A stretch of 64,000 nt of DNA, taken from Paraburkholderia fungorum. GTDB taxonomy: Bacteria > Pseudomonadota > Gammaproteobacteria > Burkholderiales > Burkholderiaceae. The notes beneath the pieces were generated by a model that had not been told where the DNA came from, did not search any database, and saw nothing but the letters and a program-made list of their open reading frames with translations. The stretch lies in assembly GCF_900099835.1 (NCBI RefSeq), contig NZ_FNKP01000004.1:372001-436000 (forward strand), given 5' to 3'. This document shows, in pieces, positions 24,878 to 46,334 of this stretch. The stretch's first letter is position 1. Each line of letters begins with the position of its first letter. Made by a program: the position numbers and the translations under genes.

Positions 24878-24945
24878 CGTTATGCGCGCCCGATAGCGCG
24901 TCATGCGCAAATCCAACTGCCCATTTACGAACCTTGAGACCAAGC

Positions 24946-26712
24946 ATGCGTTGTCAGAAATGCGGATTGACCAATAGCCCGACTGCCCGGTTTTGCAAAC
25001 AATGCGGCATGCCGATGCCTCGCAGTGCGCAGGCGGCAGTCGTCTCGCAACCTGCCGCTCACGCAGAGGCGCTGGCGTCAGAGACTGGCGGCGTGATGGA
25101 AACCTTGGTCGTACCCGCTGAGCTGGAGGTCGGGAGAGCTGACCCGGCTGCCGCTGCGGCTCTTGCCGATACGCAGGCCACAACTCCAGCACTGTCCATA
25201 TGTCCACAATGCTCAACCGAACGGATTGGCGGCAAGCGCTTTTGCCGAGCCTGCCGGTTTGATTTTTCCACGCTGCCTACGGCGGACGACGACAACGCCG
25301 ACACGTCAGTGGAGCGTAAGGCCATAGAACAGCGCCTTGCCGCTGAAGCCAAGGCCGAGGCGCAACGCGAAGCCGAAGCGCGCGCTGCTGAAGAGGCAGC
25401 AGAACGACAGCGTGCCGCTGAGGCTCGAGCCGCAGCGCAACGCGAAGCCGAACAACGTGCTGCCGAACAGGCCGCCGAACGACGCCGAGCCGCTGAGGCT
25501 CAAGCCGCGGCGCAACGCGAAGCTGAACAACGTGCGGCTGAACAGGCCGCCGAACGACAGCGTGCCGCTGAGGCTCAAGCCACGGCGAAACGCGAGACCG
25601 AACAACGCGCCGCCGACCAGGCAACTGAACCACGCGTTGCTACTGAGGCTCAAGCCACGGCGCAAAACGACGCCGAAGCAGGCGCCACCGCAACCCAAGC
25701 CACCGAAGACGAGCCCTGCCCGACTTGCTCGACGCCGCGCGCGAACGGCAAACGCTTCTGCCGCACATGCCGTTTCGATTTCGTCGAACGTATCGCACAT
25801 CAAGAGCCGAGTAAGGTTGTCGGCGAAGACACCAGCACCTCGCTTCCGATTAGCAGTGGTTCCGATCGCGAAATTGAAGAGCCGGACGCTACCTTGCTCG
25901 CAGAGAAGCCGGAGGTCACAACGCCGGCATCCGGCACCGGTGCATCAGCCACAGCGGCCGCCGGTCAGCGCAATCAGCCAGCTTCTGACCTGGATCAGAA
26001 CGCCACGCAACCCAAGCTCGAAATCGAAGCGGGAAGCGACAGGTCCCTCCCCGCCAATCGCAGCAAAAAACTGCTGATCGGCTCGATCGCCATTGTGGTG
26101 CTAGGCGTTGCTGTTGGCGCAGGTTTGTTCATTCGCTCGCAACATGCGAAGCCCACGGGCGATCAACCGCAGGAAGCGAGCGCGCCTGCCACTGCCGCGG
26201 CTGCTCCAGCGTCGGACACCGCGCCCACCGCCGCGACCGCGACTGCATCGCAGTCCGTCGCGGCCTCACAGGCCGGTGCGCAACCGGCCACGCAGCCGGC
26301 AGCAAGTGGACCCGCGAACGTCGTCGACTCCAGCGCGTCGACTACAGCGGCGAGCCAGACCGACCTTCCTGCGGCGCCTCAGACAGCCGAACCCGCCCCG
26401 GCGCCCGCGCCCGAAGCTCCAGTCGCCGCCCCGCAACCTGAAGCAACAGCAACCGCGCCAGCGCATCCGAAGCCGCGCAAACCCGTCGCGACGCCAGCAG
26501 ACGCCGGCGCGCAAAGCCCTACGATCCGCGCGGCGATCGACGGCAGTCTCGCGGACGGCACCCGCTGTTTCGAGGACAAGAAGTACGACTGCGCGATCTC
26601 GAATGCCAATGCCGTTCTGCGCCTCGATCCGCACAATAGTCAGGCGCTGTCGCTGCGCCGCCGCGCGAAGTCCGCCCAGGACAACGCGTTGAACAGTCTG
26701 TCGATTCAATGA
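24946..26712 (+). CDS. Triple zinc-ribbon protein with Ala/Glu/Arg coiled coil and TPR-like end
   Basis: 588 residues from the ATG at 24946. Zinc ribbon 1 is MRCQKCGLTNSPTARFCKQC at the N-terminus. Ribbons 2 and 3 are near-repeats, CPQCSTERIGGKRFCRACRF (about residue 85) and CPTCSTPRANGKRFCRTCRF (about 263). They are separated by a 150-residue charged repeat built of AEAxAxAQREAEQRAAEQAAER units. One membrane segment follows (LLIGSIAIVVLGVAVGAGLF, about 370). Beyond it are an Ala/Pro/Thr-rich linker and a final TPR-like helix pair (RCFEDKKYDCAISNANAVLR, LDPHNSQALSLRRRAK). The ribbons lie on the cytoplasmic side and the TPR-like end outside. Function unknown. Confidence 0.82.
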   Translation: MRCQKCGLTNSPTARFCKQCGMPMPRSAQAAVVSQPAAHAEALASETGGVMETLVVPAELEVGRADPAAAAALADTQATTPALSICPQCSTERIGGKRFCRACRFDFSTLPTADDDNADTSVERKAIEQRLAAEAKAEAQREAEARAAEEAAERQRAAEARAAAQREAEQRAAEQAAERRRAAEAQAAAQREAEQRAAEQAAERQRAAEAQATAKRETEQRAADQATEPRVATEAQATAQNDAEAGATATQATEDEPCPTCSTPRANGKRFCRTCRFDFVERIAHQEPSKVVGEDTSTSLPISSGSDREIEEPDATLLAEKPEVTTPASGTGASATAAAGQRNQPASDLDQNATQPKLEIEAGSDRSLPANRSKKLLIGSIAIVVLGVAVGAGLFIRSQHAKPTGDQPQEASAPATAAAAPASDTAPTAATATASQSVAASQAGAQPATQPAASGPANVVDSSASTTAASQTDLPAAPQTAEPAPAPAPEAPVAAPQPEATATAPAHPKPRKPVATPADAGAQSPTIRAAIDGSLADGTRCFEDKKYDCAISNANAVLRLDPHNSQALSLRRRAKSAQDNALNSLSIQ

Positions 26713-26730
26713 TGCGAGACGGAGCCAACC

Positions 26731-28518
26731 ATGTCGTATGAGTTCAATTCTGAAGGTGATCGTCTCAACCTGCCGAACCCGTTTCGTGTCGAGAACTGGT
26801 TTCGCTTTGCCGCCGCGCTGTTGCTATTCGTCGGCGGTTTAGCCGCGCTTCTGCTGAGCCGCCACAACCTCGCCGAGCATCACGGCGGCTGGGCGTTTTT
26901 GCCACTGGCGATGGGGATCTTCCTGCTCGGCAGCGGCATCAACTATGCGCGACTCGGGATGATGCAGTTGCGCTTTTACTTTGGCCGCGGTCAGCCGCTC
27001 AGCCTTGCCGATGAAATCGCCGCTAGCAATCAGGACGGCGTCATGAATGGCGCGGCGAATCTCCAGGAGCGTATGCGTTCCGGCGCCCTGTGGTTCGAAG
27101 ATCCGAAAGGCGCGCTCAACGGTTTGCTGTACTCGCTGATTCCGGCGCTGATCTATGCACCGGTACCGATCCGACGACTCGCACAGTCGCAATTCGAATC
27201 GGGGCTCGCGCTGACCGCTACGCTGCTGAGTTTCCTGATCGCCACGATCGGCTTCGACAACAGTTCGGACCGCACATGGGTCGCACTGCTGTTTTTTGGC
27301 TTTACGTTTTTCCTGCTGCTCAAGCCAATCGAACATGCCGGTCAGAAGACAACACCGCTAGGTCCGGCTGGCCTGATCGGGCTGCTGCTCGTCGCGGTAT
27401 TCGCGCCGATCGTGGTGCCGCTCGCGTCAGCGCATCTGCCGGACCTGAGCTGGCTGCCACTGACGACACAAACTTTCGCGCTGCTGATCTGCGCCGCGAT
27501 TGCCGTACTGCTGTTCTTTGTCGCCCTGATCCGACAAACGGTTGTCCCGCCGAAAACCAGCATGGGCAGCGAACTCGCCACGGTGTCGTTAAACGGTCAA
27601 CCGAAGCAACTGCTCGACGAACTCGAGCGTCACATGCAGCGGCGCTGGGTCGAGCAGATTCCGAACCGCCGTTACGCGCGCCAGACGCCTAACGTGGCCG
27701 GACAATCCGGGCAATTCAGCGGCCAGCTGTTCGAGGAGACCCAGCCGTTGCCACGTGACGATATGCGCCGGGTCGATCTGCAACGTGCTTTCACCGAACC
27801 GCGCTACCGCTGGCTCGTCGGCCTGAATGCCTTCGGAGTAGCACTGGTCGCTATCTCCGTAATCTGCCTCCTCTGGTTTGCCGCCGCCTTTTCGTCGTCG
27901 CTCGACAGCACGCGCTCCGATGCGCTGGGTTGGGCCACCTTTGGCAGCGCGATGCTCGCAGTAGGTGCATTCTGCCTGCGCGTCGGCCACATGCTGTGGG
28001 CCCGCTTCGACTTCCTGTCCAAACTCGTCTGGGTGCAGTTCGATGGCAATTTCCAGCGTTCGAAAATGAACATTGGCGCGCAGTTCACAGACCGCGTGCG
28101 CACCGAAAGCGATGTGATCGCCGTGCACGACATGTCGGTACGCATCTGGGTAGCGGAAATCGATTCGGTGACATTCGGGCGCGACCATCGACGCATGATC
28201 GTCGGCATGCGTGGCCTTCCCGATGAAGCACGCGAGTTGCGCCAGATTCTCGAGCAATGCGCACAGCAGCAGACTGTGGTCGTGGCGCCGACCTCGCAAC
28301 GCGACGTCGAAAAAATCGCCGTTGCCAGTGCGCTGAACAAGCTCGGCGATACCGCTCAAACGGACCTGTTGCCGAAACACCTACGCGAAACCCTGAGTGG
28401 TGCTTCGCCGACCGGGCGCGATGTGGCTGCCTTCAGCAGACACGACTGCACGAGTTGCGGCGAAACACTCGAAGCGGATTCGCGTTTCTGCGACAACTGC
28501 GGCCAGGTAGTGAGCTAA
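26731..28518 (+). CDS. Polytopic membrane protein with C-terminal zinc ribbon
   Basis: 595 residues. GGAG precedes the ATG, 18 bases after the previous stop. Hydrophobic segments occur at about residues 25-45 (FAAALLLFVGGLAALLL), 50-70, 135-180, 190-210, 215-235, 250-275 and again at 365-420. Soluble parts lie between (NPKQLLDEL-like ERHMQRRWVEQIPNRRYARQ) and after. The C-terminus is a zinc ribbon, CTSCGETLEADSRFCDNCGQ. The ending is analogous to that of the first gene in the operon. No transporter family recognised. Confidence 0.82.
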   Translation: MSYEFNSEGDRLNLPNPFRVENWFRFAAALLLFVGGLAALLLSRHNLAEHHGGWAFLPLAMGIFLLGSGINYARLGMMQLRFYFGRGQPLSLADEIAASNQDGVMNGAANLQERMRSGALWFEDPKGALNGLLYSLIPALIYAPVPIRRLAQSQFESGLALTATLLSFLIATIGFDNSSDRTWVALLFFGFTFFLLLKPIEHAGQKTTPLGPAGLIGLLLVAVFAPIVVPLASAHLPDLSWLPLTTQTFALLICAAIAVLLFFVALIRQTVVPPKTSMGSELATVSLNGQPKQLLDELERHMQRRWVEQIPNRRYARQTPNVAGQSGQFSGQLFEETQPLPRDDMRRVDLQRAFTEPRYRWLVGLNAFGVALVAISVICLLWFAAAFSSSLDSTRSDALGWATFGSAMLAVGAFCLRVGHMLWARFDFLSKLVWVQFDGNFQRSKMNIGAQFTDRVRTESDVIAVHDMSVRIWVAEIDSVTFGRDHRRMIVGMRGLPDEARELRQILEQCAQQQTVVVAPTSQRDVEKIAVASALNKLGDTAQTDLLPKHLRETLSGASPTGRDVAAFSRHDCTSCGETLEADSRFCDNCGQVVS

Positions 28519-32264: not shown

Positions 32265-33908
32265 CTACCCATTCAAAAGAACGATTAACATTAGGCCAAG
32301 AAAGACGCCAATATGCCATTTATCGAATGCCCGCAACTTGGCCTTCCCCAGGAATCTATACCCACGACCAGAGGAAATTACGCGGTACCGGGCAATTGGC
32401 CAGATCGGAATGAAAAAGAACACAAAATAGTAGGTTGCCATATACGATCCCCCAGGCTTTGAATCGGTTTTCCCGTAAAGAGCAAAGCCAATCCCGTTAA
32501 TCGTACGTAGCGATGGCGCGCTCCCGATCGGCTCAAGGTCTCCAAAGTTATCGGAGTTCCCTTTGGCGATAACCAGATTGTCGCTAATTCTCTTTCGAAG
32601 GTTTGTATCCGAAGCAAGTTCCAGAGCCCTTTGCAGAAGGGAGACGCAAGGAGCCCATTGCGAAGTTTTATTTCCAAAAGCTATGGCACATTGCATCGCA
32701 CCGGCTGCGATTATGTCTTTTCCTTCACAATACGTCGCAGATTCCGCCTTGATGGGTGACGCATCTAGAAGAGCCATACCTTCGATTAACAAACGCTCTC
32801 CATCGGCGCTTGCCGTGTCAGGACTGAGTTCGATACTTTTCAATACTTCCTCGACAAGATCCCTCACGGGATTGATCGCTTCCGCTTCATTTCGACGTTG
32901 CTGAATATCCGTGAGGACCTCGGAATCCTCGCTCACGCGATCAGAAACATCCGGCACTTCCGAAAAAAGTTCTTGAATCAGGCTTGTGAGTCGCTGAGAC
33001 TGCTTCAACATGTCGTGACCGTTGAAGATATCAACCGCCAAGCTGCGAATGGCCCACCCTAATTCACGGCTCGGTTCGTGATCAATACCGCGAGCTTTGG
33101 AGCTAAGTTGAATTGGCTGTGCAACGTTGTCCCAATTCCGCACCACGGCCTCAAGCTTGTCCACATAAGGTTTGACGGCAGATTCGCCAGCGCCAGCTGC
33201 ATCACGGACTGCTTTGATCAGCTTGCGGACGATTTCGGCTTCGCTCTGAAGAAAACCTTGAGCTTCCACCTCATAGCTATCGACAAGATCATCAATCAAT
33301 TCAGGAGCGTGATTCTCACCGCCGGCTGTAACCCGATTGACAACGTCCGTCATGACCTGAACGAGTGCCATTGTCGGCAAGCTATCAAGTGCGCTTTTGA
33401 TGACGCTGCAGTAGTAGCGCTTGCGCTCTGCAAGTTCGATTTCTATCTGATCGACGGATCGTACTTCCGGGAAGCCGGAGACGGCGCGATCTTCATTGAT
33501 GTCCCGCAGAATAGCTTCCGAATTAAGGTTATCGGCGAGATACGCAATCTCCTCTATGAAGCCAACCAAGTCGTCCGCGTTGTATTCTCCGTTCACCGGT
33601 TCGAGCGCAGCAGCCAGCAGATTCAGGTGTGGGAGCGTAGGCAGTCCCGACTCCTGCCTTACCGCCATTCGCTTGCTAAGCAAGCTTTCGAGTGCCTGGG
33701 TCGCTTTACGTGGAGAAACGCCGGGAAACCACGCGATTTCCGCGATCAGTCTGTTCCGCGGACTTGTCAGGTCGGAACGCGCCTTCTGGCAAACGTCGGG
33801 ATCCAACTCCAAAGACATCTCTTCCGCTACCGCGACTATGCGTCTGCGGTCATCGCGAGTCGTTACGCCTAATATGGCAAAAGGCGACATATGTAGCGTT
33901 GTCTTCAT
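32265..33908 (-). CDS. J-like membrane protein, last gene of an Hsp70-type operon
   Basis: 547 residues from the ATG at 33908, which overlaps the previous stop (ATGA). The N-terminus MSPFAILGVTTRDDRRRIVA then LELDPDVCQKARSDLTSPRN has the outline of a J domain (PYxILGV..., helix II, then the loop). The HPD motif that activates Hsp70 reads DPD, so His is missing. Long helical regions follow (VIKSALDSLPTMALVQVMTD, AVRDAAGAGESAVKPYVDKL). The C-terminus has hydrophobic segments YYFVFFFIPIWPIARYRVIS and WHIGVFLGLMLIVLL, so the protein is tail-anchored. In this operon it would tether or recruit the DnaK-like protein at the membrane; that is inference. Confidence 0.8.
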   Translation of the reverse strand: MKTTLHMSPFAILGVTTRDDRRRIVAVAEEMSLELDPDVCQKARSDLTSPRNRLIAEIAWFPGVSPRKATQALESLLSKRMAVRQESGLPTLPHLNLLAAALEPVNGEYNADDLVGFIEEIAYLADNLNSEAILRDINEDRAVSGFPEVRSVDQIEIELAERKRYYCSVIKSALDSLPTMALVQVMTDVVNRVTAGGENHAPELIDDLVDSYEVEAQGFLQSEAEIVRKLIKAVRDAAGAGESAVKPYVDKLEAVVRNWDNVAQPIQLSSKARGIDHEPSRELGWAIRSLAVDIFNGHDMLKQSQRLTSLIQELFSEVPDVSDRVSEDSEVLTDIQQRRNEAEAINPVRDLVEEVLKSIELSPDTASADGERLLIEGMALLDASPIKAESATYCEGKDIIAAGAMQCAIAFGNKTSQWAPCVSLLQRALELASDTNLRKRISDNLVIAKGNSDNFGDLEPIGSAPSLRTINGIGFALYGKTDSKPGGSYMATYYFVFFFIPIWPIARYRVISSGRGYRFLGKAKLRAFDKWHIGVFLGLMLIVLLNG

Positions 33909-34951
33909 TTGGAAGTTACATCCCCAGTCTGCGAAATTTTGGTCAGAACGTCTATTTGATAGGCATACCATGCAGCAACGCACTGCTTGTCGCGGCAATG
34001 CTTTTCCCTATAGTTCCATTGCTTGCGTGTTCTGTCTGCAAAGGCCTTCTGATCGTAAGCAGCCGCTTTCGCCTGTTGGTAGATAGCGGACAACTCCACG
34101 TCGTCCGCGGCTAACTCGGGGTCGTGGCAGATAAGGTTTTCAGGAATCGAGCGCGCTTTCGTGCAATCAAAACTTGTGGGATATGTCGCTTCGGTACTTT
34201 CCATGGTTACGGGAGCCGAGTTGAGACTGGAATTAGCGTCAAGCTGACCTCCGTTCGCAAGCGAGGTTGTGGCCGGCGCTGGAGAGAAGCGCATCATCCC
34301 TTCGACGCGAAGCTGGTTTCGGTACGGCTCGATATCTCGCCGAGCACTTTCCAGCGCACTATTTCGGTAGCGGAAATTCCCACAACGGTTGTTGTAATCG
34401 CCCACCATTGCATTGAACCTGTCCACGTCGTCGTCACTGTAATTGTTGAGAGCGGATTTCGCTCCGTCCATGCGGATGTTCTCTGCCATGCAATACCGGA
34501 TTTGCTCCGTCGAAAAGACGAGAGCTTGGCCGATCGGGGGCATCGACTCAGCCGGACGTGAAGGCATCTGCTGAGATTCAGAAGAAGGCGAATAACTGGG
34601 CGTCTCTGTCTGCGCAGGGGGCGAGTATGTGGGAGCCGGTGGTGGAGCAGTCTTATCAAGTATGCCAATGAGCGCCGACACCCCGACCACAGCGACGATT
34701 GCAATTACCCATTTTCCACCGGATGAACCGCCTCCGGATTGTTTCGTCGCTGTGTAAGGCCGCTGTGGGATGGATTGCGGCGCGGGGGGCGTTGGCTGGG
34801 AAGCCGGAAATTTAGCGTCCGAGTCTGCTTCAGAGCGGCCACTAGCTACCCTCTGTCTAGCAGGCGAAAGCGTCGTATCCACGTCGGATACAAGTTCATT
34901 CAGACCCCCGAAGCCTTTGCCCAGCTTCTTATCGTTTTTATCCACTGCCAC
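33905..34951 (-). CDS. Single-span membrane protein with C-terminal LprI-like domain
   Basis: About 348 residues. No ATG is available near the end of the AAA gene. I chose the GTG at 34951 because AGGAG lies 4 bases upstream; a GTG at 34945 is equally possible. One membrane segment (WVIAIVAVVGVSALIGILDK, about residue 80) is followed by a Pro/Ser-rich linker. The C-terminal 90 residues (FDCTKARSIPENLICHDPEL, LSAIYQQAKAA, KQWNYREKHCRDKQCVAAWY) match the lysozyme-inhibitor-like LprI domain, with its paired Cys. That domain lies outside the cytoplasm. It is the fourth gene of the Hsp70-type operon. Confidence 0.82.
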   Translation of the reverse strand: MAVDKNDKKLGKGFGGLNELVSDVDTTLSPARQRVASGRSEADSDAKFPASQPTPPAPQSIPQRPYTATKQSGGGSSGGKWVIAIVAVVGVSALIGILDKTAPPPAPTYSPPAQTETPSYSPSSESQQMPSRPAESMPPIGQALVFSTEQIRYCMAENIRMDGAKSALNNYSDDDVDRFNAMVGDYNNRCGNFRYRNSALESARRDIEPYRNQLRVEGMMRFSPAPATTSLANGGQLDANSSLNSAPVTMESTEATYPTSFDCTKARSIPENLICHDPELAADDVELSAIYQQAKAAAYDQKAFADRTRKQWNYREKHCRDKQCVAAWYAYQIDVLTKISQTGDVTSK

Positions 34952-34958
34952 GAGTCTC

Positions 34959-36398
34959 CTAAATGAACCCGATTCGATGAGTTGCGATGCTACTTTGGTG
35001 ATCACGCACAGGTGCCAGTTCGAGCGCAGCGAGAAGACTGGGCTGATCTAACTTGTCCTTTCCGGACCGGGCGGCAAGACGAGCACCTTCGCGAACAACA
35101 AAAGTGACATCAGACAAGGGTCTGCCAGTTAGCTCTTTTGCCAGCGGTTTGGAATCCACGCACGACTGCTTCGGCAAAGCGGAGAGCAACTTTTCTAGTA
35201 GTTCCTGCACTTCGACTTCACTGGCGAAGTCCACCTTGATGACGTGATCGAAGCGTCCCCGGCGCTGGATCGCTGTGTCGATCATTTCGATTCTGTTCGT
35301 CATGGCGATGATCAACACGTCTCGCTGCACAGCCTCCGGAATACGGCGCAGAAACTCGGCTACTTCCTCGACACGGTGATGGCCTGTCCCCATCTCCCGA
35401 TCTGCAAGGAACGCCTCCATCTCGTCGATCACGAGGACAGATGGCGCGTTCGCCATCGCGTTATCAAACACCTGCGCTACCTTCTTGCTGGTCTCGTGGA
35501 TGTAGGGACTGGCAACGCTCGACGCGTCGATCTGGAAACTCGGCCAGCCAAGGAAATCCACTAGCTGGTCGACAGCAAAGGTTTTGCCGCAGCCCGGGGG
35601 GCCGTGCAGAATCACTGCGGACGGGAACTCGATGCCAAACGCCTTGTAGCGGTCGCGGTGCACGACGATGTCTACGACGTGCTCGTTGAAGAAGGCCGCG
35701 AGTTCCGGACGACCTGCCAACTCGAACACCTTGTTCGGCTCTGGGCTGGTGCGTCTGGCTTCCACCTTTTCGTCGGCGGGAGACGCTTCGGTTTTCTCGG
35801 ACGGCGTCCCAGTCTCGCGTTCGAGCGGAATGATCTCGCCGACCTCGAAACCTGCTGCCTGCACGACATCCTTCAAGTGACTCGCGCCGAGCCAGCTCAT
35901 AGTCTGGCGCAGGCGTCGGAACGAGGTTGCCGGAATACTTGTGCCTCCCGTCAGCCAGTAACCGAGCACAACGTCGTCTCCAATTCTGGAACTGATGCTG
36001 TAGGTAGGCAACAAGCGGGTGATTTTCTCGACGTAGATCGCATCTTGAAGTGGCGATTCCGCATCGATGTCGCGCGTCGCTTTCAATCCCAAAGCAAACG
36101 ACAACGCCTCGGATTTGCTGTCCGGAGACTTTCCTTCACTAACCGGGCAGAGTGTCTGACTTGGTGCGCAGGAAATCACCCGAAGCTGGAGCGCGCCGAA
36201 CTGGAAAACGTCCAGCGTCCCTTCAGCGACCAAGCCCGACTGCAGCCAACGTTGCGCCAGAGAGTCGTGTACCACCAGCGCGCGACCACCTCCCATCGTC
36301 TCGTAAATCTGCCAGTCTGTGCCTTCGAACAATGCGATCCGTACCTTCGCGCCATCAGGCAACATAAGCCCGACAGGCAGCCACGATTCCACGGCCAT
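34959..36398 (-). CDS. AAA+ ATPase of the Hsp70-type operon
   Basis: 479 residues from the ATG at 36398, with GGAG upstream and 2 bases after the DnaK-like stop. The N-terminal 250 residues are not a known domain. The AAA module is of the FtsH/Cdc48 type: ILHGPPGCGKT (Walker A, about residue 265), VLVIDEMEAF (Walker B, about 325), IIAMTNR (sensor 1) and an arginine finger region in IQRRGRFDHVIKVDF. There is no protease domain, so it probably remodels proteins rather than degrading them. Flanked by DnaK-like and membrane partners, it would make a disaggregase-like pair (inference). Confidence 0.88.
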   Translation of the reverse strand: MAVESWLPVGLMLPDGAKVRIALFEGTDWQIYETMGGGRALVVHDSLAQRWLQSGLVAEGTLDVFQFGALQLRVISCAPSQTLCPVSEGKSPDSKSEALSFALGLKATRDIDAESPLQDAIYVEKITRLLPTYSISSRIGDDVVLGYWLTGGTSIPATSFRRLRQTMSWLGASHLKDVVQAAGFEVGEIIPLERETGTPSEKTEASPADEKVEARRTSPEPNKVFELAGRPELAAFFNEHVVDIVVHRDRYKAFGIEFPSAVILHGPPGCGKTFAVDQLVDFLGWPSFQIDASSVASPYIHETSKKVAQVFDNAMANAPSVLVIDEMEAFLADREMGTGHHRVEEVAEFLRRIPEAVQRDVLIIAMTNRIEMIDTAIQRRGRFDHVIKVDFASEVEVQELLEKLLSALPKQSCVDSKPLAKELTGRPLSDVTFVVREGARLAARSGKDKLDQPSLLAALELAPVRDHQSSIATHRIGFI

Positions 36399-36400
36399 GG

Positions 36401-38890
36401 TCAGCTCCGCACGATGTTTGCGCCCGCCATCATGTCGGCTTCGCCCGCGGAACCGATGCGGATAGAATCGAGATGAGCAACGGCGGTACGCAGTTTGTCG
36501 ATGTCGTTGGCTTTCAGAGCCTCTGCACCGACAGCGACCAACTGTGCGTGCTCGCGCAGGTCGGCGAAGAGGTGGGTCCCCTGTGCCAGCCATTTGAAAC
36601 GATCGATCACGAACCAGTCCTGACGCCACAGGATCATAAAGCTCCGACCGCGTAAATCGTCCAGATGCGATTCAAAGTCACCGCTTGGATTTGGAATAGC
36701 GCGCTGCGCCGTTTTCACCAGGTTGTCGAACGACGTGATTTCGGTCACGCCCGCGTGTTGACGCACATTCTTCTCAAAGAAGTCGACGGACTTGTCCAAA
36801 TCAAGCTGGCGAATCTCTTTCAGATTCTCTTTGCGACTCAACGCCAACAGACGCTTGGCGTCCTGAACGTTGTCCATAGCCTGCTTGGCCGTTTCAGGAT
36901 CAGTCTCGCCAGGTTTAATTCCGCTCGCCTTCTGCAACTTCTCACGGGCCTGTTCCAGACGCGAGTCGTCCAGCTCGGATGCCATCTCTTCAAGACGCCC
37001 CAACGTAATCGCCGACTGCTCCTTAATGTTCTTGGCCTGACTGGTGTAGTCAATCTTGCCTTCCTGACTGGAGTAGTAGTTGTGCCCGCTCTGAAACGAA
37101 CCGCTGATGGAAGGCACTGAGACTTCCAATCGGATATTGCCGGAGTCGAGCACTTCAAACTCACAGATCAGTTCTGCGCCAGCGGTGATTACACCGTCGT
37201 CGAAGTCTGTACCCTTAATCTCGAACATGCCGATGAAGCGGTTGTCATTGATGGAATCGGAGATTTCGCCTTCCCACAGCTTGAACTTGAGCGAGCCAGC
37301 GCTTCCGGCTTTGAGCGACTCGCCCGCCTTGAAGGTTTTTTTGCCCTTCTTCGGCAATTGCTCGCCCTCGCGCACGAGGTAGTCCAGCAACAAGCGGCCG
37401 CCGACTTTGTCACGAACTTCGACGCTGACGGTGTGGGATGCTGGAATCGCATCGACGCTGACGGCGGTACGGGCGATAACGATCTTGTCTTCGCGCAAGT
37501 CAACAGGTGCGCCGTTCGAGTCGAACACGAACACCTTGAAGACGTTATCACCGGGTTTGGTCAAGCTGAGTTCGATGCTTGCGCCATCCTTCAGCGCGAC
37601 GCGCCCAGACGACCAGCCTGTGTCGAGACTGTCGATCTGAAGCTCGACGCCGGTATGAGCACGCAATAGCCTGGCGACGATCTTGGCCCTGGGCTCCGGC
37701 GTGCGGGCAATATAGTTAAACGAAAGGTCGAGTGCGCCACCAGCGCTGAGTGCACCACGGGAACTCTTGCGCCCACGACTCTGCGAGTCCCAGTCGATGG
37801 ACTCGGCAAACACGGCCGCACCTTCGGCGACCGCTGTCATCGGGTTCGCCTCGGTCGACGACGCAATACCAAGCTCAAAGGCGACCTTGTCTCGCAAGTT
37901 TTTGTATTGAGCAGGGCCGCCCACAAAGACCAGCCGCTCCACATCATGAGGGCTCAACCCAGCCTTTTCGAGACTCTCTCGGGTAGCCTGGATGGATTCA
38001 TCGAGTTTTGATGCAATCAAACCGTCGTACTGGTTTCGATCGATGGGAATATCAAGGTAAACCTCCTCACCGGCCAAGTCACGCGCTCCAAGCTCGCTTT
38101 CGGCAAGGCTGATAACAGCCTCATCATTTTGCGACAACGCGATTTTTGCTCTTTCGGCAGCCCACGTCGCAATGGTACGCAGTGACCTGTACTTTGGATC
38201 GGATGCCAAATCTACTGGCAGGTCAAAGTTTTCAAGCAACCACGGCTTGACGACGTTATCAAAAAGAATTCGGTCAAAATCTCGTCCACCACACATGGCT
38301 ATACCGCCATGTGACAACAGATTGACTCGGCCAGAGATGCTCTCGGCAATGGCAACATCTAGAGTTCCGCCACCGATGTCGTACACGATAAAAACACCGT
38401 CGTTCTTTCGCTGGCGCATGATGCTCATCACGGCTGCCACTGGCTCCTGCATCAAAGCAACGCGCCCGAGGCCAGCCATATCGGCAGCGGACATCGTGGA
38501 GTCTTTCTGCATTTGGTTAAATGCGGCAGGAACTGTGATGACCGTACCTGTGTTGCCATCAGCGCGGATTTCTTCCGGCAAGTAGCCGAACAAAGTGCGG
38601 AGTACCTCGGCGGAGCATTCTTCAGGCGTCAAGGTAAGGTCGACCGCGGGCATCTTCACCGGTGTGCTGGTGCCCATAAGTCGCTTGAACAACGTCGCAG
38701 CGCTATCCGGATTGCGCGAAGCATTGTTGTAAGCACGGGAACCCACGTACTTGTTGCCACGACGATCGATAAAGATCGCAGAAGGAGTGACGTCGTACTG
38801 CTCTGGGCTTTTATGTAGGCGAATTGACTCGCCATCGAATGAACAAATGGCACTGTTGGTCGTGCCGAGGTCGATTCCTACGTATTTCAT
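36401..38890 (-). CDS. DnaK-like Hsp70 protein
   Basis: 829 residues from MKYVGIDLGTTNS at 38890; the ATG overlaps the stop of the GrpE-like gene. The ATPase domain is well preserved: GIDLGTTNSAI (phosphate 1), TVPAAFNQMQKDSTMSAADM, EPVAAVMS, VYDIGGGTLDVAI (phosphate 2) and RLVFVGGPAQYKNLRDKV (adenosine). The protein is about 190 residues longer than DnaK. After residue 400 the substrate part diverges: a beta-rich region (HTVSVEVRDKVGGRLLLDYL, EGEISDSINDNRFIGMFEIK), a coiled region, and a unique C-terminus (SFMILWRQDWFVIDRFKWLA). It is not the housekeeping dnaK, which normally sits with dnaJ and has a shorter tail. Confidence 0.9.
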   Translation of the reverse strand: MKYVGIDLGTTNSAICSFDGESIRLHKSPEQYDVTPSAIFIDRRGNKYVGSRAYNNASRNPDSAATLFKRLMGTSTPVKMPAVDLTLTPEECSAEVLRTLFGYLPEEIRADGNTGTVITVPAAFNQMQKDSTMSAADMAGLGRVALMQEPVAAVMSIMRQRKNDGVFIVYDIGGGTLDVAIAESISGRVNLLSHGGIAMCGGRDFDRILFDNVVKPWLLENFDLPVDLASDPKYRSLRTIATWAAERAKIALSQNDEAVISLAESELGARDLAGEEVYLDIPIDRNQYDGLIASKLDESIQATRESLEKAGLSPHDVERLVFVGGPAQYKNLRDKVAFELGIASSTEANPMTAVAEGAAVFAESIDWDSQSRGRKSSRGALSAGGALDLSFNYIARTPEPRAKIVARLLRAHTGVELQIDSLDTGWSSGRVALKDGASIELSLTKPGDNVFKVFVFDSNGAPVDLREDKIVIARTAVSVDAIPASHTVSVEVRDKVGGRLLLDYLVREGEQLPKKGKKTFKAGESLKAGSAGSLKFKLWEGEISDSINDNRFIGMFEIKGTDFDDGVITAGAELICEFEVLDSGNIRLEVSVPSISGSFQSGHNYYSSQEGKIDYTSQAKNIKEQSAITLGRLEEMASELDDSRLEQAREKLQKASGIKPGETDPETAKQAMDNVQDAKRLLALSRKENLKEIRQLDLDKSVDFFEKNVRQHAGVTEITSFDNLVKTAQRAIPNPSGDFESHLDDLRGRSFMILWRQDWFVIDRFKWLAQGTHLFADLREHAQLVAVGAEALKANDIDKLRTAVAHLDSIRIGSAGEADMMAGANIVRS

Positions 38891-39249
38891 GCGCCCACCT
38901 TTTTCAACATCACTGTGCCCTCTTTGCGTAAGCCATCTCGGCACATGATGATCGGCTCCAGCATTTGATCTACCAGCAAGAGATCTTCGGCACCGAAGTC
39001 GCCTAGATTCAAGGCGGAGGCGGCCATCCCGGGATCGTAAGGGTGTCCCTCGACGTTGACCAGTTTGAGATCGTTGGCGTCGAGGATTTCGTCAACCTTC
39101 TTCTGGAAATAGCGAAGTTGATTCAGGTAGCGAGTGGATTCGCCTGCGTCGAGTTTGCTGACTACTCGCGCAAAAAGGCGGGAAAAACGCCAGCCTTCTA
39201 CTGCCATGTCGATTAAAGACTGCTCCGCTTGGTTATCCCCGTTCTTCAT
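38887..39249 (-). CDS. GrpE-like nucleotide exchange factor for the neighbouring Hsp70
   Basis: 120 residues from the ATG at 39249 (a GTG lies one codon earlier), with AGGGGA upstream. The N-terminal half is a coiled-coil helix (YLNQLRYFQKKVDEILDAND). The C-terminal half LKLVNVEGHPYDPGMAASAL, then LLLVDQMLEPIIMCRDGLRK and EGTVMLKKVGA follows the head domain of GrpE (GepfDP......v.....GY.l.gkvlrpa.V.V). It is shorter than E. coli GrpE, as the helix is reduced. First gene of a five-gene operon: GrpE-like, DnaK-like, AAA+, LprI-domain, J-like. The GrpE assignment rests on this pattern and on the neighbour. Confidence 0.7.
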   Translation of the reverse strand: MKNGDNQAEQSLIDMAVEGWRFSRLFARVVSKLDAGESTRYLNQLRYFQKKVDEILDANDLKLVNVEGHPYDPGMAASALNLGDFGAEDLLLVDQMLEPIIMCRDGLRKEGTVMLKKVGA

Positions 39250-40371: not shown

Positions 40372-40538
40372 TGACCTACTGGGGATACGGACAAAATCTT
40401 GGACTACTTTGGAGGTAGTCCATGTATTCATACGAAGACCGCGTTCGGGCGGTCGAGCTGTACCTGAAACTCGGGAAGCGCATCAAGGCGACAATCTGCC
40501 ACACACTGAAGACTGCGCAAGCAGTGGGAGTGTTGCAG
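40372..40538 (+). mobile_element. IS3-family left-end fragment
   Basis: It begins TGACCTACTGGGGATACGG, a plausible IS3-type end. A start codon at 40422 then opens the HTH start of an IS3 OrfA, MYSYEDRVRAVELYLKLGKR. After about 30 codons the reading frame passes without a stop into the IS30 transposase, so the rest of this element was lost when the IS30 element inserted or recombined. Confidence 0.55.
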
Positions 40539-41699
40539 ATGAAACAGCGACGCCGGATTTATTACAGCGATACGCAGAAAGCGCTGATGTGGGAGCGCTG
40601 GCAGAAGGGCGAATCGCTTCAGCATATTGCCCAGCTTTTTGATCGAAACCACTCCTCTGTGCAACGGATTCTGGCCGAAACGGGCGGCATCCGGCCAGCG
40701 CAGCGACATCGATCGCGGCTGGCGCTAACATTAGCCGAACGCGAGGAGATATCGAGGGCGCTTGTTGCTGGCGATTCGATCCAGTCCATTGCCGTGCGGC
40801 TTTCACGCGCGCCCTCCACCATCTGTCGTGAGATCCAACGTAACAGTGACGCAGACGGCTATCCGGCAAGCCGTGCCGACCAGCTTGCCTGGGATCGGGC
40901 ACAGCGGCCCAAAGTCTGTAAGCTGGTTGAACACTGGATGTTGGCACGCATCGTGGCAGACAAACTCCAACTGGAGTGGTCACCCCAGCAGATCGCCGGA
41001 TGGCTGAAACGTGCGTACCCGGGCAACGAGGATTACCAGGTGTCACACGAGACCATCTATCGCAGTCTGTTCATCCAGGCCCGTGGTGCCCTGAAGAAGG
41101 AGTTGCTGGAACATTTGAGGCGCACCCGCGCCATGCGCCGCTCGCGCCATCACACGCAGAAGACGGATGATCACGGCAGGATTCGCGACACGGTGTCGAT
41201 CAGCGAACGCCCAGCCACCGTTGAGGACCGCGCGGTACCGGGCCACTGGGAAGGGGATCTGCTGTGCGGCAGCGGGAGCAGTCAGATTGCGACGCTCGTT
41301 GAGCGCCAGACACGCTATGTGATGCTGGTGAAGATAGCTACCAGGGACAGCGAGACGGTCATTAATGCGCTTATCAAACATGCCTGCAAGTTGCCGCAGG
41401 AACTCTACAAATCGCTAACCTGGGATCGGGGAACGGAGATGGCAGAACACAAGCGCTTCACCGTCGCCACTGACATTGCCGTCTACTTCTGCGACCCGCA
41501 ACATCCATGGCAGCGCGGATCGAATGAGAACACGAACGGACTGCTGAGGCAGTACTTCCCGAAAGGTACTGATCTGTCGGTGTATTCGCAGGCCAAACTC
41601 AACGCCGTGGCAAGGCGCCTGAACGAGCGTCCCAGGAAGACGCTGAATTACGAAACGCCAGCTGAACGGTTCCAGCAAACTTTTGCATCCACCGGTTGA
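40539..41699 (+). CDS. IS30-family transposase
   Basis: 386 residues if it starts at MKQRRRIYYSDTQKALMWER (40539), a normal IS30 length; an upstream in-frame ATG at 40422 adds the IS3 fragment. Two N-terminal HTH motifs are present (ESLQHIAQLFDRNHSSVQRI, DSIQSIAVRLSRAPSTICRE). The catalytic DDE triad is in GHWEGDLLCG, LTWDRGTEMAEH and GSNENTNGLLRQYFPKG, all intact, so the enzyme may be active. I could not identify convincing terminal inverted repeats or a target duplication. Confidence 0.9.
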   Translation: MKQRRRIYYSDTQKALMWERWQKGESLQHIAQLFDRNHSSVQRILAETGGIRPAQRHRSRLALTLAEREEISRALVAGDSIQSIAVRLSRAPSTICREIQRNSDADGYPASRADQLAWDRAQRPKVCKLVEHWMLARIVADKLQLEWSPQQIAGWLKRAYPGNEDYQVSHETIYRSLFIQARGALKKELLEHLRRTRAMRRSRHHTQKTDDHGRIRDTVSISERPATVEDRAVPGHWEGDLLCGSGSSQIATLVERQTRYVMLVKIATRDSETVINALIKHACKLPQELYKSLTWDRGTEMAEHKRFTVATDIAVYFCDPQHPWQRGSNENTNGLLRQYFPKGTDLSVYSQAKLNAVARRLNERPRKTLNYETPAERFQQTFASTG

Positions 41700-41872
41700 A
41701 TCCGCCAGGTTGAATGGTCATCCGCGCCTCTGCGCTGGCCGAGGGCCGGCTAGCGCCCCTGACTTTCAAAGCCAGGCATCTATTTTCCGGAGCCCAGTTG
41801 GCTCCGCATCGAATATGAGCGATATGACACAATGCGATTGCAAAACAATCCCTTGAACTCGGCTTGAATGAC

Positions 41873-42772
41873 ATGAATCTGCCCTCGCTCACAGAAGAAC
41901 AGCTCGCCATATTTCGTTGGATTCACGAACGTTTCGGTGACGATGTTCTCCTGCCATCCGCCGACGACCACTTGAAGATGACGGATACGGACGTCTGGAT
42001 CCGGGTAGTGAGTCAGGTCGTTGTGGTTGGAAAAGCGGAGCCTGCTAAGAGACTCAAAGATACGGACATCCGAGCGAAGTTGGACTACAGCTTTCTATGT
42101 TCGATTTCGAAGGCCGAGGCGGCGAAAGAGATCGGGAAAGTATTATCCGAGATCAAGGCTCGATACGTCCCCGATCTCAATCCGGAGTCGTCCCCGAAGG
42201 TTGTAGCCCTAATCAAGAACCTGGCCGTCCTCAAGGCTTACAAAGGCGGCCCGAGTGGTTTTATTCGCGACGTCGCGGCATTGGAGACTTCGGAGCAACG
42301 CTGGAATTACGTCGCGAAACACTTGTCCTACATAAAGAACAAGGGAGCACGCGATTTTCTTACGACCGGGTTTGGCTTGGCGACGGATCGGATCGCCCTG
42401 GACAGCCGCGTAATGGGCGTGGTGAGCCAAATCGTGCCGGAGTTACCCGCCAAGGTTCCGCCGGCCGCATACGCCGCTATCGAGGAGTTTCTTGTTAAGG
42501 GCGTATGCAAACCCCTCAAGATCACACCCGCGCATTTGGACCAACTACTCTTCAAGTATCAGCCCCAGATCCTCGCGGAACTCGGCTCGATGGCGCCGGC
42601 TAGGGATCTGACTTCCGTAAGCAATGAAGCGTTGCTACGCCAGCACGGCCAGATACTCGCGGAGCTCAAGCGCCGCGAAGTCCTGCGGGCGGAAAACGAT
42701 CCGACCGGCAACTACGCCAAATGGCTCGCTGCTCAGAAGCCATTCAGTCCAGACTGTGGTGACCAGTCGTAG
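41873..42772 (+). CDS. DNA-glycosylase-like (HhH-GPD) protein with C-terminal partial domain
   Basis: 299 residues from the ATG at 41873; a TTG lies 9 bases earlier. The middle is like helix-hairpin-helix base-excision glycosylases of the Ogg/AGOG type: VVSQVVVVGKAEPAKRL, then LSYIKNKGARDFLTTGFGLA and RIALDSRVMGVV, where K and D correspond to the catalytic pair. The last 45 residues, LLRQHGQILAELKRREVLRA and DPTGNYAKWLAAQ, match the start of a different domain common in bacterial hypothetical proteins (DUF6998-like). It stops abruptly, so the C-terminus looks truncated. The substrate is unknown. It follows the IS30 transposase. Confidence 0.6.
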   Translation: MNLPSLTEEQLAIFRWIHERFGDDVLLPSADDHLKMTDTDVWIRVVSQVVVVGKAEPAKRLKDTDIRAKLDYSFLCSISKAEAAKEIGKVLSEIKARYVPDLNPESSPKVVALIKNLAVLKAYKGGPSGFIRDVAALETSEQRWNYVAKHLSYIKNKGARDFLTTGFGLATDRIALDSRVMGVVSQIVPELPAKVPPAAYAAIEEFLVKGVCKPLKITPAHLDQLLFKYQPQILAELGSMAPARDLTSVSNEALLRQHGQILAELKRREVLRAENDPTGNYAKWLAAQKPFSPDCGDQS

Positions 42773-43345
42773 ACCGACTTCGGTGGAAGGAAATCCTCTC
42801 AACTTCACCGTAGCGTGACACGCCCGCTACCTACGACGGTGTTGGCCGTTTTGCGCCATCCCTAATCGGCTTTGGAGTGGTGGTTTTGCGGGTAAACCGG
42901 ACGCCCGAACGTCTCCGCAGGGAAGGTACCGAACGACTCTTCATGGCCGAGATGGAATGGACACCGGAAGTCAGCAATCAAGCAGTGGCAGACTAGCCTG
43001 ATGTTTCCTCGAACTGCTGAAGTCGTATCGCTGGCGTCGTTCGCAGCACTGCGCGCCGACTATGTCGCGATATACGCCAGCGCATCCATCCCCCTTCAGC
43101 GTCTCGTCTGTCACCAAACGCGATGCATCAAGGACGGGGTGAAAATGTCCTCGCTCCGGCGCATCGGGCACTTTTCCGGCGGGACCGTTGCCAGCACCAG
43201 AACAGCCTTGATGCTCGATAAATCGAACACTATGGCGTTAATGCTCGATTTATCGAGCATTTGAATTCACGCTGGTTACCGACCATGTGCTACACTGATG
43301 CTCGATAAATCGATCCTTAAGCCGGTACGGCTCGTTTTAACGATC
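42773..43345. other. Interval before hipBA with no visible gene apart from operators
   Basis: 573 bases. Short frames lack motifs. The last 140 bases hold three copies of the hipB operator-like repeat and the probable promoter of hipBA. Confidence 0.45.
43211..43313. promoter_or_regulatory. Three HipB operator-like repeats
   Basis: ATGCTCGATAAATCGA occurs at 43211-43226 and 43298-43313. At 43241-43260 it becomes a near-perfect palindrome, ATGCTCGATTTATCGAGCAT (9-base arms). The third copy lies just after TACACT, a possible -10. Such repeats are typical for HipB, which represses its own operon cooperatively. Confidence 0.75.
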
Positions 43346-43687
43346 ATGAAAAGCAAACAGAGCGTCATCGTCAGCCCCGCGATCCTCAAACAAACTCAGC
43401 GCTTGGGTCAGTCGCTCGCGCGACTTCGCGTCGCGCGACATGTTCAGCAAAGTGAAGCCGCCGTGCGCGCGGGACTCTCGCGCAATACCGCGTACCGGCT
43501 CGAAACCGGCGATCCTGGGGTCGCGATCGGTCAATGGCTACGCTACCTCGAAGCCATTGCACCTGGACTCACCCTGCTCGATCTGATTACTGCCCGGGAC
43601 CCTGCGCTAAAAGCGCAGACGGAGCGCGAGCGCACCCAGCGCGTGCGCAACCTTTCAACCGAAGAACTTGATGATCTGGATTTTTGA
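43346..43687 (+). CDS. hipB: HipB-type XRE antitoxin
   Basis: 113 residues from the ATG at 43346 (MKSKQSVIVSPAILKQTQRL); an earlier GTG/ATG in frame overlaps the third operator repeat and is less likely. HTH: LARLRVARHVQQSEAAVRAG, LSRNTAYRLETGDPGVAIGQ. The C-terminal tail RVRNLSTEELDDLDF is acidic, as in antitoxins that bind HipA. The stop overlaps the hipA start. Three operator-like repeats stand upstream. Confidence 0.85.
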   Translation: MKSKQSVIVSPAILKQTQRLGQSLARLRVARHVQQSEAAVRAGLSRNTAYRLETGDPGVAIGQWLRYLEAIAPGLTLLDLITARDPALKAQTERERTQRVRNLSTEELDDLDF

Positions 43688-45039
43688 TGTCCGCGTCAGA
43701 AAAACGCCTTTATGTGTTCGCGTCTCTCTCCGATGGCGAATGGGCTCCGGCCGGCCAGCTCCTCATGACGGAGGACGATGCAGATCTGCAGGCGTCCAGC
43801 TTTGCATATGGACTGCGCTATATCGATCGCGCTGACGCGATTGAGATCGACCCGGTCAGCCTGAGTTTGTCTGATAAGGACGCTGTCCGCGCAAAGCGCC
43901 TCTTCCCCGCGAACGGGCTGACGCTTTTTGGCGGCATTCGTGACGCTGCGCCGGACGCCTGGGGCCGGCGAGTGATTGAAGCGAAGCTGAAGGTGAAGGC
44001 AAATACGCTTCCAGAATCGACGTATTTGCTTCATGCGGGCACGCAGCGCATCGGCGCGCTCCACGTCAATGGAGATCTCGCGTGGCGCCCTGACGATGCT
44101 GGCGGCGCGGGTGTCGACTCACTTCAGTATCTCGTTGAATCCGCCGATCGCATCGAAGAAGGCATTCCAGTACCCGCGACCCTCGAGGCGATTTTCGTAC
44201 AGGGAAGCGGACTGGGTGGCGCGCGGCCAAAAGCGACCGTACGCGATGACGCAGGGGTCCTGTGGCTCGCGAAATTTCCGAGCAAGACCGACCGAATGGC
44301 CGTGACCGCGATCGAGGAGGCCACGCTTCGACTCGCAGCTGACTGCGGCATTCGCGTGCCCCCGACCCGGATAGTGTCCCTCGGCAAGCGCCAGGTCATG
44401 CTGATCCGCCGGTTCGACCGCTACTGGAGCAACCCGGAATTCGCCACCAGCGTCGGCGACGACGGATTGTATCTCGCACCAGGCAAAGGCACGCAGGAGC
44501 GCCGGGTGCCGTTCGCGAGCGCCCTCACCCTGGTCGGCTGCTCAGAGGTCGAGTCGATCACGAAAAGCTACCAGGACATCGCAGACTCCATCCGCAAGTA
44601 TGTGCATGTCGGTATGGTCCGTGCGGATTTGCGCGAACTCTTCAAGCGCATGATCTTCAACATTTTCGTGAGCAACGACGACGATCATCTGCGCAACCAC
44701 GGGTTCATCTGGGATGCGAGACTGCCGGGCTGGCGGCTTAGCCCGCTCTATGACGTCATGCCGCGCCCCAGCAGCGCATATGAGCGCACGTTGCATCTCG
44801 GTATCGGCCAGCAGGGACGCGCCGCCACGCTCGACAACGCATTGCCGGGTGCTGGCGCCTTCGGACTCTATGGAGCAGATGTGCTCGAGGCGATCAGCGA
44901 GGTCTGGACAAAGGTGCGTGAGTGGAAAGTCTTTTTTGAGGGCCATGGCGTAGCAGCAAACGAGATGGACAACATCCAGCCTGCTTTCCGGCACATCGAC
45001 GATGTATCGACTGCTGAGCTCCGCAAAAAGCTCCCCTGA
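43687..45039 (+). CDS. hipA: HipA-type serine/threonine kinase toxin
   Basis: 450 residues from the ATG at 43687 overlapping the hipB stop. FANGLTLFGGIRDAAPDAWG-like, then GSGLGGARPKATVRDD (nucleotide loop), LWLAKFPSKTDR (Lys), IEEATLRLAADCGIRVPPTR, RQVMLIRRFDR, then the catalytic stretch MIFNIFVSNDDDHLRNHGFI and LSPLYDVMPRP (metal Asp) are all in place. HipA kinases phosphorylate glutamyl-tRNA synthetase or related targets and induce growth arrest. No truncation is seen, so the module looks functional. Confidence 0.93.
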   Translation: MSASEKRLYVFASLSDGEWAPAGQLLMTEDDADLQASSFAYGLRYIDRADAIEIDPVSLSLSDKDAVRAKRLFPANGLTLFGGIRDAAPDAWGRRVIEAKLKVKANTLPESTYLLHAGTQRIGALHVNGDLAWRPDDAGGAGVDSLQYLVESADRIEEGIPVPATLEAIFVQGSGLGGARPKATVRDDAGVLWLAKFPSKTDRMAVTAIEEATLRLAADCGIRVPPTRIVSLGKRQVMLIRRFDRYWSNPEFATSVGDDGLYLAPGKGTQERRVPFASALTLVGCSEVESITKSYQDIADSIRKYVHVGMVRADLRELFKRMIFNIFVSNDDDHLRNHGFIWDARLPGWRLSPLYDVMPRPSSAYERTLHLGIGQQGRAATLDNALPGAGAFGLYGADVLEAISEVWTKVREWKVFFEGHGVAANEMDNIQPAFRHIDDVSTAELRKKLP

Positions 45040-45461
45040 AGATAGGTGATCCCACGTACGTCAGTGCGAGACAAAAGATATTCAGCCGCCGCGCATCGGC
45101 GCGCGAGTCGTCTACGCGCAGCCCCGTAAATACGGTTTCAAGCCTTCTCGCACAGAGCAAGGACTTGTTCATAGTAGTTGCTTTGGCCTTCCTGTCATGT
45201 AGCAACAGGAGCGTCGCGCGATACCTACAAAGGAAACGCGGGCATTCAAAGCCTGACCAGCGAGCCGCTCGCACCTGAACGCGCGCTCGAGCGTACGTCA
45301 ACAAGCGCTCAGATTTATGGCGCCGGTCCTTCGATGACGCGTCGTCAAACGGCGGGTCTTCCGTTATCAAGAGACATTCATTGTGTGTTGGCCGCAGGCC
45401 GCTTGATCCGCTGGCTAGCAGAGAACGTCAGCGAATGAGTCAGCAGCGGGAGCCAACGACA
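45040..45461. other. Intergenic interval with no visible gene
   Basis: 422 bases between hipA and the IS66 element. Frames present on both strands have no motif and no ribosome binding site. Confidence 0.4.
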
Positions 45462-45537
45462 GTAAGCGCCCGGTCATCTCATCTTGAGTTGCGCTGAAAG
45501 TCGTGGGAGCATCGTGTGCACTTAAATAGGTGGACAC

Positions 45538-45936
45538 GTGAACACTATTGAAGAAGGAGTAGTGCCTGGCCGTCGACGACGCCGGCGCTACAGTATCGAG
45601 TTCAAGGCTCAGGTTGTGGCAGCTTGCCAGGGGCCGGGGGTGTCGCTCGCGGCTATCGCGTTGCACCACAAGCTGAACGCCAATCTGCTTCGACGCTGGG
45701 TCGAGCAGGCCGAAACGAACGATTGTGTGCTTGTGGCCCGTAGCGACCTGACAGCGCCCCCATCAGCGGCGCGGACACCGACACCGGAATTTGTACCGCT
45801 GCCACTTGAGATGCGAAACACGCGTACAGCTGAGATTCGCGTCGAGGTGCGTCGCGCGGACCTGTCGATAACGGTGAGCTGGCCAACCTCAGAGGCAGCG
45901 CAATGCGCCGCCTGGCTGCGCGAGTGGCTCGCATGA
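45538..45936 (+). CDS. tnpA: IS66 TnpA (HTH accessory protein)
   Basis: 132 residues. RRRRYSIEFKAQVVAACQGP, then GVSLAAIALHHKLNANLLRRW is the HTH characteristic of the first IS66 protein. The C-terminal half is a small basic/beta part (EIRVEVRRADLSITVSWPTS). The stop overlaps the tnpB start (ATGA). Confidence 0.9.
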   Translation: MNTIEEGVVPGRRRRRRYSIEFKAQVVAACQGPGVSLAAIALHHKLNANLLRRWVEQAETNDCVLVARSDLTAPPSAARTPTPEFVPLPLEMRNTRTAEIRVEVRRADLSITVSWPTSEAAQCAAWLREWLA

Positions 45937-46271: not shown

Positions 46272-46334
46272 AGACGCCAGGGACGTAAACAGTCGCGCTT
46301 TCGCGCTCTCCGGGGTTCTGGCAGACTCGTCTGC

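Follow-up and report, generated by a model that had tools for sequence, protein, structure and literature searches.

The window analysed here, a stretch of 64,000 nucleotides from the Paraburkholderia fungorum contig NZ_FNKP01000004.1 (503,609 bases, in a genome of 8.58 Mb on four contigs), carries on its minus strand an operon of five genes, called A to E below, which encodes a private Hsp70 unit together with an AAA+ ATPase and a tagged membrane protein. We consider it fairly probable that this operon is a mobile chaperone system of defence islands, in which the Hsp70-AAA+ pair works with the tagged envelope protein D. Support is good for the private Hsp70 unit and for its conservation, a role in anti-phage defence is probable as judged from sequence, and what we propose for the partner of the tag and for the target are guesses. 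New in this analysis is a sharp N-terminal tag on the D-type proteins. The genes, all on the minus strand as are the features within them, are A (38887..39249, 120 amino acids), GrpE-like and resembling the C-terminal part of GrpE; B (36401..38890, 829 amino acids), an Hsp70 whose ATPase residues are invariant among its relatives; C (34959..36398, 479 amino acids), an AAA+ ATPase; D (33905..34951, 348 amino acids), the tagged membrane protein, which has a single hydrophobic segment and ends in an LprI-like region; and E (32265..33908, 547 amino acids), a helical, J-like protein whose C-terminus forms a membrane module. Four-base overlaps (ATGA in each case) join A to B and D to E, while the spacing is 2 bases between B and C and 7 bases between C and D; the D gene has a GTG start codon with AGGAG ahead of it. 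The original prediction, made from the letters of this DNA, had described five open genes that overlap or nearly touch on one strand, and the open reading frames (ORFs) are confirmed at these coordinates.

The five-gene arrangement recurs across bacterial classes and is therefore beyond chance. Our set comprises 65 loci, 59 of them in named genome records, bins included, which were reached through the alignment of E, and six on IMG/VR contigs, reached through the alignment of C; near-copies and metagenome bins are among the 65, which are thus not independent. A, B, C and E are all present at 42 loci, and 36 of these, spread over several classes, have the genes in the order A-B-C-D-E on a single strand, so that the predicted recurrence of the gene order in other genomes is borne out; two more read A-B-C-E-D, two have a divergent E and two are without D. 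The spacing is kept as well: in 31 of the 36 ordered loci every gap is within 100 bases, and 38 of 40 A/B pairs overlap. The remaining loci comprise one without a callable E, six with E alone and 16 runs without A (seven BCDE, four CDE, four DE and one BCE), and all of these A-less loci apart from L039, L049 and L052 begin within 150 bases of the locus start (13 of the 16). The hosts belong to the Alpha-, Beta- and Gammaproteobacteria, and there are also metagenome bins labelled Campylobacteraceae and Hydrogenedentota. Carriage is sparse. With the window's own genome counted in each figure, the operon is carried by 3 of 398 genomes of the phylum and 4 of 144 of the genus; in the order, 4 of 399 genomes gave a full-length match to A, and there was a single further match, weak and interrupted by stops. 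In the Hsp70 tree Beta- and Gammaproteobacteria are intermingled, and the window groups with Aeromonas simiae (SH-aLRT 98). A megablast search of complete E. coli genomes with one relative's genes, by which near-identical DNA only is detectable, gave no match, and of the 40 records returned by a search of phage records with B none covered 80% of that protein.

B is an Hsp70 by its match to Pfam PF00012 (3.6e-51) and is, by its sequence, of the ATPase-competent type. This assignment draws on 18 positions with ATPase roles in DnaK, mapped to B from an alignment with DnaK and HscA, which are invariant in 35 of 35 Hsp70 rows. The domain borders of B were taken from an alignment with the host DnaK and HscA and from a structure model (pLDDT 83.9), whose domain layout agrees with that of the sequence alignment. 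A nucleotide-binding domain (residues 1-370) is followed by about 110 extra residues, by a substrate-binding beta domain that was delimited by sequence and structural alignment as well as by the model (residues 488-600, 37091..37429), and by a helical C-terminal region, taken from the model, that is longer than the tail of DnaK (residues 618-829, 36404..37039). Between the nucleotide-binding and substrate-binding domains the alignment places a beta stretch (residues 376-474, 37469..37765), with strands in the model, that has no counterpart in the host DnaK and HscA. Structural alignment matches the model to DnaK and BiP over their full length, in ATP states (for BiP, 469 residues at 2.9 A over residues 1-610); the helical tail, a candidate for the Hsp70 lid, follows the substrate-binding domain, and most of the best structural alignments stop near residue 610. 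The prediction had credited this Hsp70 with a new C-terminus, and the longer helical tail agrees with that, but part of the extra length is the beta insert between the two domains. The possibility that B is a canonical DnaK paralogue was rejected, as its score of 186.3 bits is far under the cut-off of the NCBIfam DnaK equivalog (822.55).

The product of C matches the Pfam AAA family (2.9e-29), and within it residues ~238-458 most resemble the Cdc48/VCP/NVL type, with NVL, VCP and Cdc48 as the nearest solved relatives. The Walker A lysine, the Walker B DE, an RxGRFD motif and a pore Y or F are present in 42 of 42 C rows. The protein is also related to the AAA module of IetAS, matching the IetA-type AAA of PADLOC at 2.5e-26, and it has an FtsH-type match that spans the AAA part of that model. 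Membership of IetA was rejected, since C scores 89.7 bits against NCBIfam NF042959, for which the cut-off is 510, and a Pfam search found no peptidase domain in any of the five proteins. Between the genes for the Hsp70 and D the operon encodes, as had been predicted, an AAA+ ATPase with no recognised protease domain. Apart from the generic AAA, no core-gene profile of PADLOC (2023) is matched by the five proteins; A, D and E have no profile match at E values up to 0.1, and B has one at 0.013 only.

The tag of D, KGFGGLNELVSDVD in the window (residues 12-25, 34877..34918), was recognised as a motif in the relatives of this protein. In these, KGFxGLSxLVSDVD near the N-terminus is followed by a weakly conserved variable linker, then by the hydrophobic segment and by a middle domain that bears the motif DYNxRC. 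In the window, the hydrophobic segment is a stretch of 19 residues from residue 76 in a simple hydropathy scan (34670..34726), and the middle domain, which was placed by its conserved motif and is without a Pfam match, covers residues ~142-225 (34277..34528). The information content is 2.6-4.3 bits per position within the tag and 1.0-1.7 just past it. All 65 complete stand-alone D-type proteins have the tag, 63 by pattern and two, at L044 and L103, as near variants recognised by eye; the other four of the 69 D-type matches are two that are cut at contig ends and two untagged E-D fusions. In a separate database search the tag pattern was found at residues 11-20 in 119 of the 120 listed relatives of D, and by eye in the last, while 119 of the same 120 have the DYNxRC motif and 114 have one hydrophobic segment. 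Among 6246 ORFs of the loci, the tag pattern is confined to D proteins and to further genes in the same loci, and at 16 loci there is more than one tagged ORF, a few of which are otherwise unlike D. The D-type proteins were found with the whole of D as the query, and it was the tag that led to those downstream proteins with nothing else in common. As these proteins differ from one another and have mainly the tag in common, it suggests a shared docking site or a signal that marks clients, perhaps for the chaperone machine. In viral contigs the DNA pattern of the tag has one match, on the L101 contig. Past E at L009 (17452-21259) lie genes for proteins of 214 and 162 amino acids, a tagged protein of 349 amino acids, one of 217 amino acids and an RDD protein; genes of this type after E, in Tn7-linked and other copies, are perhaps an extended form of the system.

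Two alphaproteobacterial plasmids (L013 and L014) encode an E-like and a D-like stretch in one polypeptide, followed by A and B, which suggests that D and E are functionally tied; C was not found at these two loci. The outer ends of the D proteins are varied. PG_binding_1 is present in 93 of the 120 listed relatives, a lytic transglycosylase (L053) and a cytochrome c (L019) were each seen in a single case, and cysteine-rich repeats, by eye, end some others. In the window the end is LprI-like (residues 263-321, 33989..34165; PF07007, E 0.083), with 13.7 bits against a Pfam gathering cut-off of 22, and from the alignments this end is probably common to the window's few relatives aligned over 99-100% of D. 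The outward LprI-like domain of the prediction thus persists as a sub-cut-off match in this D, but it is one among several ends. LprI was rejected as a defining trait because other D proteins carry different outer ends, whether peptidoglycan-binding, transglycosylase, cytochrome or cysteine-rich.

The assignment of A as GrpE-like is moderate and that of E as J-like is weak, both being drawn from remote similarity. A gave no Pfam family match at E values up to 1. Its top PDB profile match is GrpE (4ani_A, E 0.038), and a comparison with GrpE by hhalign, in which the same kind of positions are aligned, gives an E value of 0.0018 but a probability of 14.7%; the predicted exchange factor thus has moderate support. 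The A gene lies directly ahead of the Hsp70 gene, like grpE on the host contig C1. At E values up to 0.001 A has 2048 relatives and E has 1555. The only Pfam match of E, in a search at E values up to 1, is at chance level (0.083). Its N-terminus (residues 9-58, 33735..33884) consists, by model and alignment, of four short helices in J-domain order (9-13, 21-31, 37-48 and 50-58; pLDDT of the model 87.8) with LDPD replacing HPD; a fold comparison of E, by which these helices were barely covered, listed only helical repeats and bundles. A simple hydropathy scan finds one hydrophobic segment in E, at the C-terminus from residue 527. The membrane module that ends the protein is present in 10 of 73 E proteins by motif and in 2 further ones by eye, and in 45 of the 73 its place is taken by a soluble stretch, recognised through a loose motif and PH-like by eye only; one E protein with this latter type of ending has a weak DUF6585 match. 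The claim of two membrane-bound members accordingly holds for D, by its hydrophobic segment, and for E as it stands in the window, but the module of E is a minority form among the relatives.

The probable role in defence is suggested by the genes around the operon, where the enrichment in defence genes that had been anticipated was indeed observed. At 1e-30, the 133 proteins of flank set 2 matched 53 PADLOC families and the 124 random proteins of control 2 matched 1, while in the first pair, with 148 proteins each and a threshold of 1e-10, the flanks matched 122 families and the controls 26. Among the 25 of the 53 families that were listed are GajA and GajB (Gabija), ZorA and ZorB (Zorya), SngB (Shango), SoFic, JetD (Wadjet), AbiEii and a type I restriction enzyme. 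Flank set 1 consisted of 148 of 159 eligible proteins (the two closest on either side, up to 1000 amino acids) and flank set 2 of all 133 remaining eligible proteins (at most 1100 amino acids), out of 304 flank proteins listed overall; the flanks of L010, L034 and L069 were left out as near-copies. Control 1 was 148 of 149 proteins from 20 random 10-kb stretches of three genomes, one of which (G093) carries the operon elsewhere, and control 2 was 124 of 134 proteins from 19 such stretches of three other genomes, an overlapping twentieth being left out. Genes in all of these sets were taken as the longest non-overlapping ORFs. The flank sets include the Zorya genes of L011, a locus that was found through plasmids, and the genes that follow E in many loci, which are possibly members of the system.

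On Polaromonas pPNAP01 a D-less copy lies between Zorya and a helicase/AAA pair, with BREX genes next. Two plasmid copies directly follow Tn7-like transposition genes, and one copy is near mercury resistance genes. The operon is also present on IMG/VR contigs; among the viral contigs, one has a phage tail gene ~5 kb from the operon and two have integrases. The Tn7-like neighbours, the viral contigs, the sparse carriage and the mixed tree speak for mobility. In the window, two transposase genes lie upstream of the operon within 40422-47915, one of the HTH_38/rve type at 40422 and an IS66 one at 46335, and suggest a mobile region.

Several points weigh against our interpretation. Control 1 itself held a strong match, to a DinG-type helicase (7.3e-121), the two controls together sample only six genomes, all from the window's order, and what PADLOC counts here is families and not proteins, so that one protein may match many. 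Genes of an island may also accompany defence genes for other reasons, and a tree of mixed classes is by itself no proof of transfer. The loci L071 and L105 are without D and two others carry E divergently, which indicates that D is not always needed. Co-variation with the absence of a tagged D was seen in no column of B, C or E and in two columns of A, from three to five untagged loci. The HPD motif is absent from the 56 aligned E rows (row P0064 begins inside the region), the similarity of E to DnaJ by hhalign is weak (E 0.018, probability 2.5%), and a DnaJ Pfam match, also weak, occurs in 1 of 31 E members (E 0.11); what is left of the J-like protein of the prediction is the helix pattern in J order. 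The wider proposal of a dedicated membrane-linked defence system retains the conserved private Hsp70 and AAA+ operon, the membrane-bound D and the association with defence genes, but loses strength at its J-like component.

Hsp70 plus an AAA+ ATPase is the classic disaggregase pair, and an operon that joins the two could serve stress survival or general protein repair. The mercury resistance genes near one copy would suit such a role, and the tLST loci are a case of lateral transmission in beta- and gamma-proteobacteria, according to two reports (PMC8290217, PMC8407380). We nevertheless think this explanation unlikely: defence genes abound around the operon, C is closest among solved AAA proteins to NVL, VCP and Cdc48, and the outer ends of D vary widely, which would be unneeded for a general repair factor. 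A chance gathering of chaperone-like genes with unrelated roles would fit the observation that neither A nor E is above any Pfam family cut-off, but it is very unlikely because order and spacing are kept in several classes. The machine could also be a helper in assembly or secretion, acting in the maturation or insertion of D and of further membrane proteins with the tag; these would then be the cell-wall effectors. The same N-terminal tag on different proteins of one locus is what is expected of clients, and a comparable case is HscA, a private Hsp70 that recognises its client IscU through the motif LPPVK. However, two loci read A-B-C-E without D, and the defence-island context is left unexplained by such a helper function in itself, so we regard it as quite improbable.

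In the interpretation that we favour, a mobile defence-island system in which the Hsp70-AAA+ pair works with D, the latter would span to the periplasm with an often peptidoglycan-related domain and keep a tail on the cytoplasmic side, tagged and probably disordered, to which E and the tag could recruit B and C. An infection that disturbs the envelope, or a misfolded phage protein that loads the chaperones, may alter the state of D, and the Hsp70-AAA+ pair might then unfold, extract or assemble a target and so block the infection. The tag could act like the LPPVK motif or as a starting grip for the AAA+ ring. More tentatively, the operon may represent a new anti-phage class, in which a full private Hsp70 cycle and an AAA+ unfoldase act on cell-wall-anchored sensors, recognised by the shared 14-residue tag, and in which swaps of the outer domain retarget the one cytoplasmic motor to different envelope signals. 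If this is true, bacteria would use for defence a set of components familiar from protein repair, namely an Hsp70, an exchange factor and an AAA+ ATPase, and there would be a modular link from envelope sensing to a cytoplasmic remodelling motor; the short tag is a direct experimental handle on the system. The five-gene system was not found described in the open-licence PMC literature, and a term search of the main text of PMC13092281 (DefensePredictor) found no Hsp70, DnaK, DnaJ, chaperone or peptidoglycan.

Among described systems, the HSP70-GrpE-DnaJ operons of the GAP1-N2 conflict systems come nearest in spirit. According to Kaur et al. 2020 (PMC7159879), these predicted conflict operons are GTPase-centred and contain a private HSP70-GrpE set and a DnaJ fusion; their FNIII-repeat proteins carry a fused DnaJ or TPR part, and the distribution is predominantly actinobacterial and firmicute. 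In contrast, the operon described here has an AAA+ ATPase, no GTPase among its five genes, the tagged D and mostly proteobacterial hosts. The type III CoCoNuT systems likewise place Hsp70-like nucleotide-binding and substrate-binding domains in a restriction-type defence, but these are reported to have degenerate motifs and to be fused or linked to McrC-like proteins (PMC11090510). A CoCoNuT-type identity of B was rejected, as its checked ATPase positions are intact. The canonical grpE-dnaK-dnaJ operon has the three roles in the same order, as on the host contig C1, whereas here there are two extra genes between, a shorter A, an E without HPD and an insert in B.

Two other systems provide precedents for our view of an envelope-anchored defence machine. 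One is Zorya, whose ZorB binds peptidoglycan and is required for defence (PMC11890865); as with many D proteins, a membrane protein with a peptidoglycan-binding domain works there with a cytoplasmic part, and Zorya is also the neighbour on pPNAP01. D differs in its tagged N-terminal tail and in its other outer domains, and profile searches gave no match to a MotA-type channel among the products of the five genes. The other is bNACHT25, which senses phage through the host's own DnaJ and so ties the DnaJ/DnaK chaperones to phage detection (PMC12169576), whereas the operon here encodes a private chaperone set. On a Haliscomenobacter plasmid (L016, 5345-12870), genes for a CFI-box protein, a membrane protein that is weakly GrpE-like by alignment, an Hsp70, an AAA protein and TerB adjoin BREX; this Hsp70-AAA-TerB set is possibly a distant cousin of the operon.

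Other genes of the window were noted in passing. A run of genes on the plus strand (22548-28518) has zinc-ribbon matches at 22548, 23636 and 26731, two of them barely above the Pfam cut-off. The ORF at 41864-42772 partly matches the PADLOC model of a type II methyl-directed restriction enzyme (7.9e-11 over 44 residues). A HipA-like gene at 43684 (3.3e-45; region 43298-45039) comes after a small ORF (43298-43687), with which it may form a toxin-antitoxin pair. On the minus strand, 50065-51222 is a gene with a DUF1016 and a YhcG PD-(D/E)XK nuclease domain, possibly a further defence or mobile gene.

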